From positions 1 through 39,184 of the forward strand of contig CAKMJS010000051.1 of the NCBI GenBank assembly GCA_927405585.1: 39,184 nucleotides of DNA, written 5' to 3'. The translations under genes and the position numbers were made by a program. Of the stretch, positions 1,442 through 32,908 are shown one piece after another. Position 1 is the first letter of the stretch, and each line of letters starts with the position of its first letter. The notes under the pieces are model-generated. The model worked only from the letters and a program-made list of their open reading frames with translations. It was not told where the DNA came from and did no database searches. The DNA comes from an uncultured Desulfosporosinus sp. (GTDB lineage Bacteria > Bacillota > Desulfitobacteriia > Desulfitobacteriales > Desulfitobacteriaceae).

Positions 1442-4400
1442 ATGAGCGATAAGAACTATTACTTTCAAAAACTTACTCCCATTAACAATGCTGAGTTGAG
1501 AATTTATGAAGATGCACTAGATTTTGTTTTTGCCAACGATAATATAAACAATGTTGCAGTATCAGGCTCGTACAGTGCTGGCAAAAGCAGTGTGATCGAA
1601 ACTTATAAAAGTACACATTCCAATCTTCGTTTTTTGCATATTTCTCTTGCTCACTTCGAATCGACTGATTTAGGTAACAAAAGCGAAACTGACAAGGGGG
1701 CAGAAACCTTTTTAGAGGGCAAAATTCTCAATCAGCTTATTCACCAAATTGACCCAGAGGGAATTCCGCAGACACACTTCAAAGTGAAACAAAAGGTGTC
1801 TAATGAGAAAATCGGTAAAATTGCAGCAATCATAACCGCTTTTTTAATCTTAGCAGTTTACATAGGGTGCTTTAAGGATTGGAGCGAGTTTGTCTCGACG
1901 TTACCTGTCGCATGGCTTAAATCTGCACTATTATGGACAACGAATAGTTCAATGCTTCTATTAAGCGGAATAATATGTACTTTCATTTTGGGAATGGTAG
2001 TCTACACTCTTATCAAAACTCAAAAGAATAAAGGCATTTTTAGAAAAGTTAGCTTACAAGGAAATGAGATTGAGATATTCGAGGAACACGAGGATTCTTA
2101 TTTTGACAAGTATCTCAACGAAGTCTTGTATCTTTTTGAAAACTCTAATGCTGACGTTATTGTATTTGAAGACATGGATAGGTTTAACGTAAACCAAATC
2201 TTTGAGAAATTAAGGGAAATTAATACCCTTGTTAATAATAAAAAGAAAATAGAGAAAAGCCCTGAAATTAAATTTTTCTACTTGTTAAGGGATGATATTT
2301 TTACCTCAAAAGATCGAACGAAGTTCTTCGATTTTATTATTCCTATCGTACCGGTTGTTGATGGGTCTAATTCTTATGATCAGTTTATAGCACATTTCAA
2401 GCAAGGTGGTATTCTTGAATTATTCGATCAGAAGTTTTTGCAAGGGTTATCATTATACATTGACGATATGCGAGTCCTAAAAAATATATATAACGAATTC
2501 GTTATATATTTTAATCGGATCGAATCTACTGAACTAGATAGGGACAAACTGCTTGCAATTATTGCTTATAAGAATATTTTCCCTAGAGATTTTGGAGATT
2601 TACAAATAGGAATGGGTTTTGTCCATACTCTATTTGAAAGCAAACCTGATTTCATAAAGCAGGAGATCCTAAGAATTGAAATGGAAATCCAGAAAATCAA
2701 AAATAAAGTTCAATCTGCAAATAGTGAAATGCTGGTTTCCGTTGACGAACTGGATGCCGCTTTCTTGTTATCTAACCTTCAAATACATACTGTTGCGGGG
2801 AAAGATGCTTCCACATTCAATACCCGTGTTCAATTAATTAAAGCTATTAAGGACAATCCAAAGAGGGTCCAATATTTCACCCCTGGCTACAACCCCGGTG
2901 TACATCAAAAAGACATGACCTCTGATTTTATGCAACTTTTACAAAATCCAGAATATATAAATCGAAAGCAAGGTATTGAAAGAAATAATGGAACCTATAT
3001 AGAACAACTTAAAGAAGAGATACAAGAATTGCAATACCAAAAATCTATTATTCTAACTAGTCGGCTAAGAGATATTATAAAAAAGGAAAACATTGATACT
3101 GTCTTTGGTCTTAATTTCAAGAATGAGATAGGGGAAGAAAATACTTTCCCAGAAATAAAATCAAGTTCGTATTTCGCGCTGATAAAATATTTAGTTCGAA
3201 ATGGGTTCATTGATGAAACGTATCCAGATTACATGACCTATTTTTATGAGAATAGTCTTAGTCGGATCGATAAGATATTTCTGCGCAGTGTTACGGATGA
3301 GAAGCCCAAGGAATATTCCTATCCGCTTAAAGATTCGAAGATGGTTCTGTCCAGATTACGGGTTGTCGATTTTGACCATGTAGAAATCCTTAACTTTGAT
3401 TTGTTGTGCTATCTTTTGAAAACGAAGCCAATTAACGATTTATATTTAAGTGGTCTCCTACATCAACTGATGAAAACTAAAAACTACAAATTCATTGGGG
3501 AGTTTTTGGGGCTGCAGAGAGAAACAGATTCGTTTGTTGAAGCTCTAAACAATGTATGGCCAAGTGTTTTTCAATGTATCCTCGCTGAAAGTGGTTTTAG
3601 CGATGCACAGAAAAGAAAATATGCGATCGATACATTATATTATTCATCGGATGCAGATATTGAAGCACTTAATGAAAATGACTGCCTATCAACCTTTATA
3701 TCTGAGAGTCCTATTTTTCTGGACATTGCTACACCTAACATCACCAAAATTGTTGATGGGTTCTCTTTGATTGGTGTTAGATTCACCTGGATTAATCACG
3801 AGGTATCAAACAAAGATCTCTTTTTGGCTGTATATAAAAACAATCTATATCAGCTGAGGTTTGACCTTATTTGCTTAATTTTGAAAGTAGTTTACGGGTA
3901 CTCGGAAAGTAGTGACTTCAATAGCAAAAGTTATACTTTGGTTACTTCTAAACAGGAAGAGCCGTTGGTGCAATATGTGAACGAGAATATAGATCAATAC
4001 ATTGGCATTATCCTCGATAACTGCAGCGAGCGTATTGATGATGAAGAACCCGTGGTACTGGAAATACTCAACAATTCAGAGATTGATAACGATCATAAGA
4101 AAGAGTACATCAACTTCCTGCAAACAGTAATTGAACGCATTGAGTCTGTTCTTGACAAAGGATTGTGGAGTCTTCTATTACAAAAGAAACTGGTTTATTA
4201 CTCCGAGAATAATGTGCTGAACTACTTCTTTCATAGTGAAAATGGGTTAGATTCGTTTTTGATTCAGTTTATAAATGACTTTGACCATAAACCGGAGTTT
4301 GACAAGAACACTATTGATAGCAATTTCGGCGAAGAGTCCACTTCAAAATTCTTTAATGCGATTGCAGCTTGTAATGAGCTAAACAACGAAAGATATGAAG

Positions 4401-30223: not shown

Positions 30224-30661
30224 GATTTAGTAAGAAAACTATCCGATACTAATATGCCTATCCTATCTTGTAGTGGGGCTGGTGTTCCAGAAAGGTTTTT
30301 ATCAAAAAAGCAAATGAATAACCAGCAATCTCAACGTATAAAAGGTTTTTATCCACTCCTTGAAGAGATTCAGAAAACTACTTTCATATTTGCCCACGGA
30401 GGGATGTATGAAACTGATGATCTAATAGAATTAATGAAAAAGTTCCCTAATACATATACAGATATTAGCTTACAGCCTTCACATCATATACGAAAGCTTA
30501 TTGATAAGTTAGGCAGTGAGAGGCTTATATTTGGAACAGACTATCCTTTTTTAAACCACTCCTTCTCAATTGTCTCAGTATTAAGAGCGACTTCAAAAGA
30601 TGAAGAAAGAGAAAATATTTTTTCGCGTAATTCATGTAGATTATTAAATATTCGTAATTGA
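30224..30661 (+). pseudogene. amidohydrolase (metal-dependent) C-terminal fragment
   Basis: About 145 codons corresponding to the second half of an amidohydrolase-2 type TIM-barrel enzyme: FIFAHGGMYETDDLIELMKK with a metal/active-site His, NTYTDISLQPSHH, and the conserved GSERLIFGTDYPF with the catalytic Asp. The N-terminal HxH metal site is missing, and the strand that usually carries a histidine (PxxxHxG) reads PILSCSGAG here. The frame is open upstream of ATG 30254 with no start or binding site. A truncated, probably inactive copy. Confidence 0.75.
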
Positions 30662-30764
30662 ATTCGGTTGAAATCATATTTGTTTTTAATTTATTAGGGG
30701 GTTATCGGATGGTAAATTTAGAAAACCCTTAAAGTGGTGTGGTCAAGGAATACTTGGATTAATA

Positions 30765-31736
30765 GTGATAGGGTTACTTATCCCAACTTGGACACCTGCT
30801 ATTAAGGGTGAAAATAGTGTAAGAGTCTATGAGCAGGTTTTAATAAACGGAACTAAACATCAACTTATGGTACGAGGCGTAGATAAAAATAATCCTATTT
30901 TAATTTTTGTACATGGTGGTCCGGGATATTCGGAAATTCCATATGTAAGGAAATATCAAGATATCCTGGAGGAGAAATTCACTATAGTTCACTATGACCA
31001 ACGTGGAGCTGGCAAATCATATCATCTTTTTGAGGACTACTCAAATTTATCTGCAGAATTACTCACCAAGGACTTAATAGCACTAAGTAAGTATGTTCGT
31101 GAACGGTTTGGAGTGGATAAGGTTCTCTTAGCTGGTCATTCCTTTGGTTCTTACATTGGAATGCAGGCTGCAGCAAAAGCAACTGAAAATTATATTGCCT
31201 ACATTGGAATTGGACAAGCATCAAATTTCAAGGAAAGTGAATTAGATGCTGTAAATTATTGTCTTGAAGAGGCTGCTAAAGCAGGGAATAAAGTTGATAT
31301 TGAAGAGCTTGAGGAAATAAAGAGCCGATTTGAAAATGGAATTGTTTTCGTTCCACGTAAATACAAAGAAAAATATGGGGGTGGCTCACGCCTTACTGAT
31401 GAATATGGTGATTATAAGAATCGTTATCTTACGAATAGAGAATACAATCTACTTGACATAGTCCGCTTTAGACTAGGCGTAAATAATAGTATAGTTATGG
31501 TTGATGACATACTTCAAAACCCTGTGACAAGTCTTGTTAAAAGACTTGAAATACCATGTTATTTCCATATGGGACAGTATGATTATCAGACTTCTGCAAA
31601 AGCCGCAAAGAATTATTATGACTCGATTAAAGGACCTGAAAAAGAATTTATATTATATCAAGAATCAGCTCATTATCCGCAATTTGAAGAAGAAGAAAAA
31701 TTTGCTGATTGGCTTATTAATAGGTTCTCAAACTAA
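30765..31736 (+). CDS. alpha/beta hydrolase (proline iminopeptidase-like), start frameshifted
   Basis: 323 residues from GTG 30765. The serine-hydrolase core is intact: oxyanion HGGPG (50-54), DQRGAG (78-83), nucleophile Ser126 in GHSFGS, and plausible acid and base in MGQYDYQT and ESAHYPQFEE. The real start was probably ATG 30709, 7 bases after AGGGGG: it begins M-V, but one A is missing and it stops after seven codons. Restoring that A gives KFRKPLKWCGQGILGLIVIG, a basic stretch and membrane anchor that continues into this frame. Translation from GTG 30765 would yield a form lacking most of the anchor, so this may be a recent pseudogene. The peptidase label is by similarity only. Confidence 0.75.
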   Translation: MIGLLIPTWTPAIKGENSVRVYEQVLINGTKHQLMVRGVDKNNPILIFVHGGPGYSEIPYVRKYQDILEEKFTIVHYDQRGAGKSYHLFEDYSNLSAELLTKDLIALSKYVRERFGVDKVLLAGHSFGSYIGMQAAAKATENYIAYIGIGQASNFKESELDAVNYCLEEAAKAGNKVDIEELEEIKSRFENGIVFVPRKYKEKYGGGSRLTDEYGDYKNRYLTNREYNLLDIVRFRLGVNNSIVMVDDILQNPVTSLVKRLEIPCYFHMGQYDYQTSAKAAKNYYDSIKGPEKEFILYQESAHYPQFEEEEKFADWLINRFSN

Positions 31737-32548: not shown

Positions 32549-32836
32549 TCAAAATACCCCTTTGACTGTAAAGGCTGGTTTAAAAAGAGGTATTTTTATT
32601 TTTACCTTAATTTGAAGAGTTTCCGAAATCTTTACACTCTTATCAATATAAATTTTGATCCCTTGGTATTCATACTCATCGTAAGTATCCATTTTTTCAT
32701 ATTGTGGTTTCGATACCCCTGACCAGAGGCTTCTTGAAATTCCTGATCACGTATGGCAGACAAATTGACTTATAAAAAAGGCACCAGTGCTTTTTTTGAT
32801 TGCACTTATAGTTTTTGCATTGATATCAAACTTCAT
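32549..32836 (-). CDS. probable selenoprotein, 95 residues with in-frame UGA (CxxU), CC/Se-motif (HesB-like) type
   Basis: ATG 32836, with a perfect AGGAGG 10 bases upstream, opens a frame of 96 codons interrupted only by TGA at codon 30 (32749-32747) and ended by TGA at 32549. Before the internal TGA: MKFDINAKTISAIKKSTGAF and FISQFVCHT. After it: SGISRSLWSGVSKPQYEKMD, TYDEYEYQGIKIYIDKSVKI, SETLQIKVKIKIPLFKPAF, TVKGVF. Reading TGA as selenocysteine gives Cys27-His-Thr-Sec30, a redox CxxU motif. The layout (I-x-A-K-x-x-I start, Y-x-x-x-GIKIYI middle, VKG end) matches, from memory, the ~95-residue HesB-like CC/Se-motif (seleno)protein family. A SECIS-like hairpin follows the TGA and a strong sigma-A promoter precedes the gene. 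A nonsense-mutated pseudogene is the alternative. Confidence 0.7.
32715..32730 (-). promoter_or_regulatory. SECIS-like hairpin after the in-frame UGA
   Basis: In the mRNA, GCCUC pairs with GGGGU around the apical loop UGGUCA, beginning 16 bases after the UGA, with the loop reached after 21 bases. Bacterial SECIS elements need a short stem with a G/U-containing apical loop at about this distance; the well-studied E. coli fdhF loop AGGUCU is similar. The stem is short (5 pairs, two of them G-U). Confidence 0.45.
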
Positions 32837-32879
32837 ACTTTTTGCACCTCCTATATACCCGTATGGAGTATTATAGAAT

Positions 32880-32908
32880 ATTATAGTCTAGTTTCTATAA
32901 GTGTGCAA
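32880..32908 (-). promoter_or_regulatory. sigma-A promoter of the selenoprotein gene
   Basis: Reading on the minus strand: TTGCAC (32908-32903), exactly 17 bases, TATAAT (32885-32880). The -10 is perfect and the -35 matches 5 of 6. It places the start near 32873, about 37 bases before the ATG. Confidence 0.75.

Follow-up and report, generated by a model that had tools for sequence, protein, structure and literature searches.

The window, by which we mean the whole 39,184-nucleotide stretch of DNA from an uncultured Desulfosporosinus sp. analysed here, carries on its minus strand what we judge, with a probability of about 0.9, to be a real selenoprotein gene whose in-frame UGA at codon 30 is read as selenocysteine (Sec). 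The gene very probably falls in a Sec-only branch that is sister to the CC/Se motif family NF041239 and is called here the LWS branch, its members sharing an LWS(E/G) peptide after the TGA. The parent family is already known; the LWS branch appears to be new. Sec insertion at UGA30 itself is what we infer from the conservation of this codon, of the coding sequence on both of its sides and of a hairpin that follows it.

The initial annotation described an ATG, an AGGAGG and a TTGCAC-N17-TATAAT promoter ahead of a frame broken only by a TGA at codon 30, and all of these are present (Table 1). The TGA is the single in-frame stop and the frame is otherwise open, so that read-through gives a product of 95 residues with U30 within V-C-H-T-U and no Cys after Sec30. 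As had been claimed, standard translation splits the gene: under the standard code, the sole listed open reading frame (ORF) of at least 30 codons in that frame within the gene has 47 codons (32692-32549).

Table 1. Features of the Sec-encoding locus and its upstream region in the window.
Feature	Position	Strand	Details
Proposed selenoprotein gene, 95 codons + stop	32549..32836	minus	ATG 32836-32834, stop TGA 32551-32549
Proposed Sec codon UGA (codon 30)	32747..32749	minus	aligned codon is TGA in 23/24 clade rows, window included
bSECIS-like stem-loop in the coding sequence	32713..32732	minus	loop UGGUCA 32725-32720, 21 nt after UGA
Ribosome-binding site AGGAGG	32847..32852	minus	direct reading of the sequence
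CsoR-type palindrome ATACTC-N5-GGGTAT, putative operator	32855..32871	minus	between -10 and ribosome-binding site
Putative promoter TTGCAC-N17-TATAAT	32880..32908	minus	direct reading of the sequence only

Conservation at the protein level is found on both sides of the TGA, in agreement with the initial annotation, which had described protein-like composition on both sides and a frame kept throughout. A hidden Markov model (HMM) built solely from eight relatives outside Desulfosporosinus, with a search space of 20,000, matched the whole read-through protein at E=3.9e-31, the segment after the TGA alone at E=1.6e-20 and the segment before it alone at E=0.0014. Among 205 controls, composed of the five other frames and 200 shuffles, a single one was listed (E=9.8), with all others above 10. 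Compared with the gene of the closest relative (L048, 88% identical), the window gene has four synonymous and two non-synonymous codon differences before the TGA and ten of each after it; per site and uncorrected, the non-synonymous and synonymous values are 0.029 and 0.25 before the TGA and 0.071 and 0.29 after it. A conserved in-frame TGA flanked by coding sequence on both sides, as expected of a bacterial selenoprotein gene, is thus present.

A profile search with NF041239 gave matches in 68 of 150 related genomes. Among these matches, a sub-group from the same genus and order covers approximately profile positions 1-81 with one TGA in each gene, and the fetched loci of this sub-group have the TGA at the aligned codon, followed by the common LWS(E/G) peptide. 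The closest record, from Desulfosporosinus sp. UBA8487, is about 86-88% identical to the window protein (86% by tblastn), and identity to the window protein ranges from 33 to 88% across 18 aligned relatives. More distant members of the branch come from Gracilibacter and Peptococcaceae metagenome-assembled genomes (MAGs), Clostridium simiarum and Alkalibacter mobilis. Within the order, 19 of 73 genomes carry an LWS gene, the source genome included. When 398 genomes of the phylum were compared with the branch profile, 29 matches were obtained at E<=1e-4, of which only the source genome (G000), G008 and L094 (in G123) fall inside the clade on the tree; the other phylum matches included in the tree are all outside it.

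On this tree, 24 rows (23 with the LWS motif, plus L094) lie on one side of a branch with support of 100, a value from a quick method using SH-aLRT only, applied to 87 rows and as few as 96 columns, with L094 and L123 as long rows. Position 30 in the 24-row clade is Sec in 23 rows, Leu in one and Cys in none, and both Sec and Cys-Cys types occur among the rows outside it. L094 has kept Sec and lost LW, and the close relative L048 keeps both TGA and hairpin, with no sense codon at this place. The single Leu belongs to a tandem pair of LWS genes (L053; G069 contig C10, about 30303-31067), one copy of which has TTA replacing TGA; that copy has no nearby Cys, retains the hairpin sequence and, judged by eye, has half of the palindrome described below. 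In a set of 22 genes picked for having the TGA, which includes neither the L053 Leu copy nor L094 (both in the tree), Cys is found three residues before Sec in ten genes, two residues before it in two, and at neither place in ten. With Cys at -3 in fewer than half of these genes (10 of 22), the conserved residue is Sec and not a CxxU pair; and since ten genes have Cys at neither -3 nor -2, a CxxU mechanism cannot be branch-wide. Ten of the LWS genes, from other genomes of the genus (L039-L047 and L049), form a second Desulfosporosinus group, in nine of which Tyr, not Cys, stands two residues before Sec, while L039 reads SCGU.

The hairpin with a UGGUCA loop, which the initial annotation had put at SECIS distance from the UGA, is present there and conserved across the genes. 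As folded, the window hairpin has a GGUC loop closed by a U-A pair. According to a 2026 review, bacterial SECIS (bSECIS) elements have a loop of 3-9 nt, a stem of 4-16 bp, a G in the first two loop positions, a distance of 16-37 nt from the UGA and a minimum free energy of -7.5 or lower (PMC13188914). The window hairpin agrees with these rules, with a distance of 21 nt and an energy of -8.3 kcal/mol (44 nt folded), a value that is not below that of shuffled sequences (z 0.11; 98 of 200 shuffles as good), for which reason folding energy was rejected as proof of a SECIS element. In an alignment running gap-free from the TGA through 20 of the 22 genes (L123 and L164 left out), 82.1% of the cells of CUC-UGGUCA-GRG and its outer pairs are paired, versus 76.5% in shuffles (0 of 500 as high), and covariation is 0.228 versus 0.171 (2 of 500 as high). 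The pair at columns 20/35 is GC in 14 genes, GU in four and AU in two. Pairs changed on both sides showed no excess over shuffles (2 vs 1.9). Of the seven pairs, two are open in about half of the rows, columns 19/36 in 10 of 20 and columns 21/34 in 9 of 20. The distance from the UGA to the loop is 21 nt in all but one of the 22 genes and 24 nt in Alkalibacter. The Leu codon of LWS is CTC in 22/22 genes, compared with 13 of 137 Leu codons elsewhere in the same genes, and in two genes where the Trp of LWS has become Arg, the GG of the loop is still kept. The LWS peptide thus appears to owe its sequence to the RNA hairpin more than to the protein.

Two explanations would do without selenocysteine. 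The gene could be a decaying pseudogene, an ordinary CC-type member of the family whose codon 30 has mutated to a stop; the tandem L053 copy, with Leu for Sec, demonstrates that loss does happen. Decay is nevertheless hard to reconcile with a TGA kept in nearly every row of the clade at identities to the window protein reaching down to 33%, with protein-level conservation on both sides, with a retained hairpin and with a clade that contains no Cys row, and we regard a pseudogene as very improbable. The locus could instead comprise two short genes, for a 29-residue peptide and for a 47-residue protein starting from the ATG at 32692, the latter being the ORF that standard translation lists. Against this stand the relatives in the family that lack the stop and run through with Cys-Cys while others have TGA, the conserved residues G32, L37 and S39 within residues 31-48, which lie outside the short ORF, and, by eye, the lack of an AGGAGG-like site before the ATG at 32692. 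A pair of separate genes is thus highly unlikely, and we retain the reading of one selenoprotein gene.

The machinery for Sec insertion is encoded in the genome, with selA, selB and the tRNA-Sec (selC) each above its own cut-off: SelA at 540 bits (cut-off 268), SelB at 375 bits over its frame (cut-off 242) and tRNA-Sec at 66.1 bits (gathering score 47). Across the order, the co-occurrence of tRNA-Sec does not discriminate carriers of the LWS gene (16 of 19) from non-carriers (38 of 54), in counts for which one of the two underlying analyses had stricter filters. The three carriers without tRNA-Sec are assemblies in 250 to 970 contigs.

The initial annotation had linked the product to HesB-like CC/Se-motif (seleno)proteins. 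The homology to the CC/Se family holds, as does a resemblance to HesB-type proteins in predicted fold; the score against the family model falls short of its threshold. NF041239, the 'CC/Se motif family (seleno)protein' model, matches residues 1-79 of the read-through protein over profile positions 1-78 of 91 at E=1.3e-7, scoring 31.6 bits where the cut-off is 40 (24.6 bits in a six-frame search). Homology thus covers most of the profile, with Sec at the motif. Scores in the LWS branch are around or below the cut-off, at 22-38 bits for members from the genus and from most of the order; L056 of G068 just attains it (39.7, counted as 40). Besides profile homology, the LWS branch and NF041239 (Moor_selen_rel) share Sec or Cys-Cys at the aligned place and hairpin-like sequence straight after the UGA. 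They differ in that the LWS branch is a separate clade without a Cys row, has LWS(E/G) where NF041239 has P-x-V-x-x-G-x-P, and, by eye, has the hairpin CCUC-UGGUCA-GRGG instead of the CCUGC-CGUG(U/C)AU-GCAGG of L090, L020 and L096. The initial annotation also called the CHTU spacing unusual, which proved mistaken, as CxxU is the motif listed for NF041239, predicted in Moorella, in a table of the 2026 review (PMC13188914). In the literature passages searched, which came from PMC13188914, PMC10318464, PMC9918477, PMC12013277 and PMC5029168, the parent family is named only in the first and the LWS branch in none, though an earlier mention may exist. The source genome has a further relative of the CC/Se family (C13:31-333; L002, L059) with an in-frame TGA (SGGUCP) and 32.8 bits, under the cut-off; similar genes, some over the cut-off, occur in G018, G021, G022, G002, G019, G012, G020 and G034.

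HesB/IscA proteins carry a C-terminal Cys pair, and the window protein, with no Cys after residue 30, lacks one. Neither TIGR01911 nor PF01521 matched the window protein at E up to 10, and in a PF01521 search of the source genome with E up to 1, L172 and L173 were the sole entries. These form a HesB/IscA-type pair, 79% identical, at 1501-1839 (+) and 1450-1767 (-), with Cys in one and an in-frame TGA at the same place in the other (GMGCGG / GVGUGG); they are probably Cys and Sec isoforms. What the window protein shares with the TIGR01911 and IscA/SufA/ErpA proteins is the predicted A-type carrier fold, and the same genome holds L173, with its own in-frame TGA; the missing Cys pair and the missing match to a sequence model set it apart. 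Profile comparison of alignments A2 and A3 with the two HesB-type proteins of the genome was not significant (2-3% probability), so that the relation to HesB depends on the predicted fold. In one local alignment (A3 with A5), residue 30 does stand opposite the Cys/Sec of the HesB-type proteins, and Sec30 is probably near the place of their first conserved Cys. Three other results concern unrelated families or RNAs: RNase H2 subunit B accounted for five of six PDB sequence matches at E up to 10 (best E 0.24) and Pfam ArfGap scored 20.8 of 28.7 bits, below its cut-off (E 4.3e-4), both taken as chance, and no Rfam family matched within the window at gathering scores.

The predicted structure resembles A-type Fe-S carriers (IscA/SufA) in an AlphaFold2 model built from 13 rows (pLDDT 88.7, pTM 0.78). 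In a Foldseek search of the PDB with this model, no match reached E 0.001; the first four ranks went to chains of SufA and IscA, with E from 1.7e-3 to 1.3e-2, and rank 5 had E 1.3. With VIA-align, the best ten rows were A-type or HesB-like by title, at Z 4.3-6.8, values that, being under 8, may reflect only a common arrangement, and the next row had Z 2.2. They included IscA (Z 6.8, rmsd 4.2, 85 aligned), SufA (Z 6.8, rmsd 3.1, 82 aligned), Aquifex AQ_1857 (6.2), two putative Fe-S biosynthesis proteins (5.8 and 5.1), A. vinosum DsrR (5.5), a YneR model (5.5) and HI1723 (4.3).

The promoter of the gene contains an operator-like palindrome. The pattern ATACCY-N5-RGGTAT lies 15-31 nt before the start in 11 of the 12 genes that do not belong to the second Desulfosporosinus group, window included; nine of these palindromes have no mismatch and two (window and L048) have one mismatch to the strict pattern. 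In shuffles of each region, 0 of 1000 were as good, although the shuffles kept nothing but base content and the genes, being related, do not count as independent. The LWS gene of Alkalibacter has no such palindrome upstream (four mismatches), and neither has any of the ten genes of the second Desulfosporosinus group, where the best candidate has three. The pattern occurs at eight distinct places in the source genome, compared with three forward and two reverse for a reversed control pattern, and at 32 sites versus 8 control sites in eight relatives, where seven of the 32 precede the LWS gene itself and some others are inside ORFs. L080 and L084, inside longer ORFs, together with L086, which like L084 has short spacing, were taken as chance.

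Further sites in the source genome accompany an SBF-family transporter, a thioredoxin reductase, a small ferredoxin and a csoR-like cluster, and with a change the palindrome also precedes a csoR-like gene (L167) followed by thioredoxin (trxA). Sites in relatives, several recognised by eye, belong to trxB, a csoR-like gene with thioredoxin, ferredoxins, rhodanese, an SBF-type transporter and an ArsM-like methyltransferase; L079, L082, L083 and L167 share the palindrome with these loci of relatives. Some of these gene names were tested against models; those of second copies in relatives, of DsrE- and TusE-like genes and of a copper ATPase were assigned by eye. The set is apparently a thiol/sulfur or metalloid response in the order. 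Five CsoR-family genes are present in the source genome, three of them within 8 kb on contig C124 (L085, L169, L170, L171), where the neighbouring genes resemble, by eye, those of Mrp-type ATPases, DsrE and TusE/DsrC. By eye, the His of the copper site is missing from two regulators on C124; of the five, the one with thioredoxin has a C-H-C spacing and two others have C-Y-C. PMC10318464 describes most CsoR-RcnR proteins as binding pseudo-palindromes with G or C tracts, and CstR homologues as often repressing rhodaneses. The present sites resemble CsoR/CstR regulons in having a G/C-tract pseudo-palindrome at the promoter and rhodanese, thioredoxin and transporter genes among their other locations; they differ in including a selenoprotein, none being mentioned in the available parts of PMC10318464 or PMC9918477.

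The gene could also be a real selenoprotein gene under a CsoR operator for copper or another metal, its product serving as a metal buffer and not as a sulfur or thiol protein. The csoR-like product next to trxA (L167) fits such a view, with C/H/C by eye at spacings 0/+25/+29, which we take to be the Cu(I) ligands of CsoR, and with the copper sensor RicR as its nearest NCBIfam model, at 75.3 of 175 bits and hence far below cut-off. The site found in relatives at an ArsM-like methyltransferase gene, which at 218 of 263 bits stays short of its cut-off, points the same way. The other targets, however, are trxA, trxB, ferredoxins, rhodanese and an SBF-type transporter, and a copper P-type ATPase gene recognised by eye beside another CsoR-family gene (L168) has no site by the loose pattern. 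We consider a metal-buffer function under a metal-sensing CsoR less likely than not.

On the reading that we prefer, UGA30 would be decoded as Sec with the help of the in-gene bSECIS hairpin, giving a 95-residue A-type-like protein (by predicted fold) with no C-terminal Cys pair. A CsoR-family regulator would probably repress the gene at the palindrome, in the source genome and in most relatives of this type, and the gene would be induced alongside those for thioredoxin reductase, thioredoxin and small ferredoxins. Sec30, with Cys27 where present, may bind or transfer sulfane sulfur or a soft metal, or reduce a thiol target. The repressor, its signal and the chemical role are our proposals from these patterns, and chalcogen or soft-metal handling by the Sec30 protein has, in our estimate, slightly less than an even chance of being correct. 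More tentative still is the idea of a Sec-obligate, A-type-carrier-like family, with no Cys form, that would hold or move sulfane sulfur, selenide or a soft metal as part of a CsoR/CstR-type stress regulon in anaerobic Clostridia-like bacteria. No selenium-dependent protein of A-type fold that lacks a Cys form is known to us from reactive-sulfur or thiol stress.

The curated family model scores below its cut-off on the window gene, and standard translation cuts the gene in two. Methods needing Cys-containing homologues would struggle with a Sec-only clade, and the authors of deep-Sep name this need as a limit of their tool (PMC12013277). The LWS peptide lends itself well to a study of how coding and SECIS function are reconciled, and the palindrome ties a selenoprotein to a regulon of thiol and sulfur genes in a way that can be tested directly.
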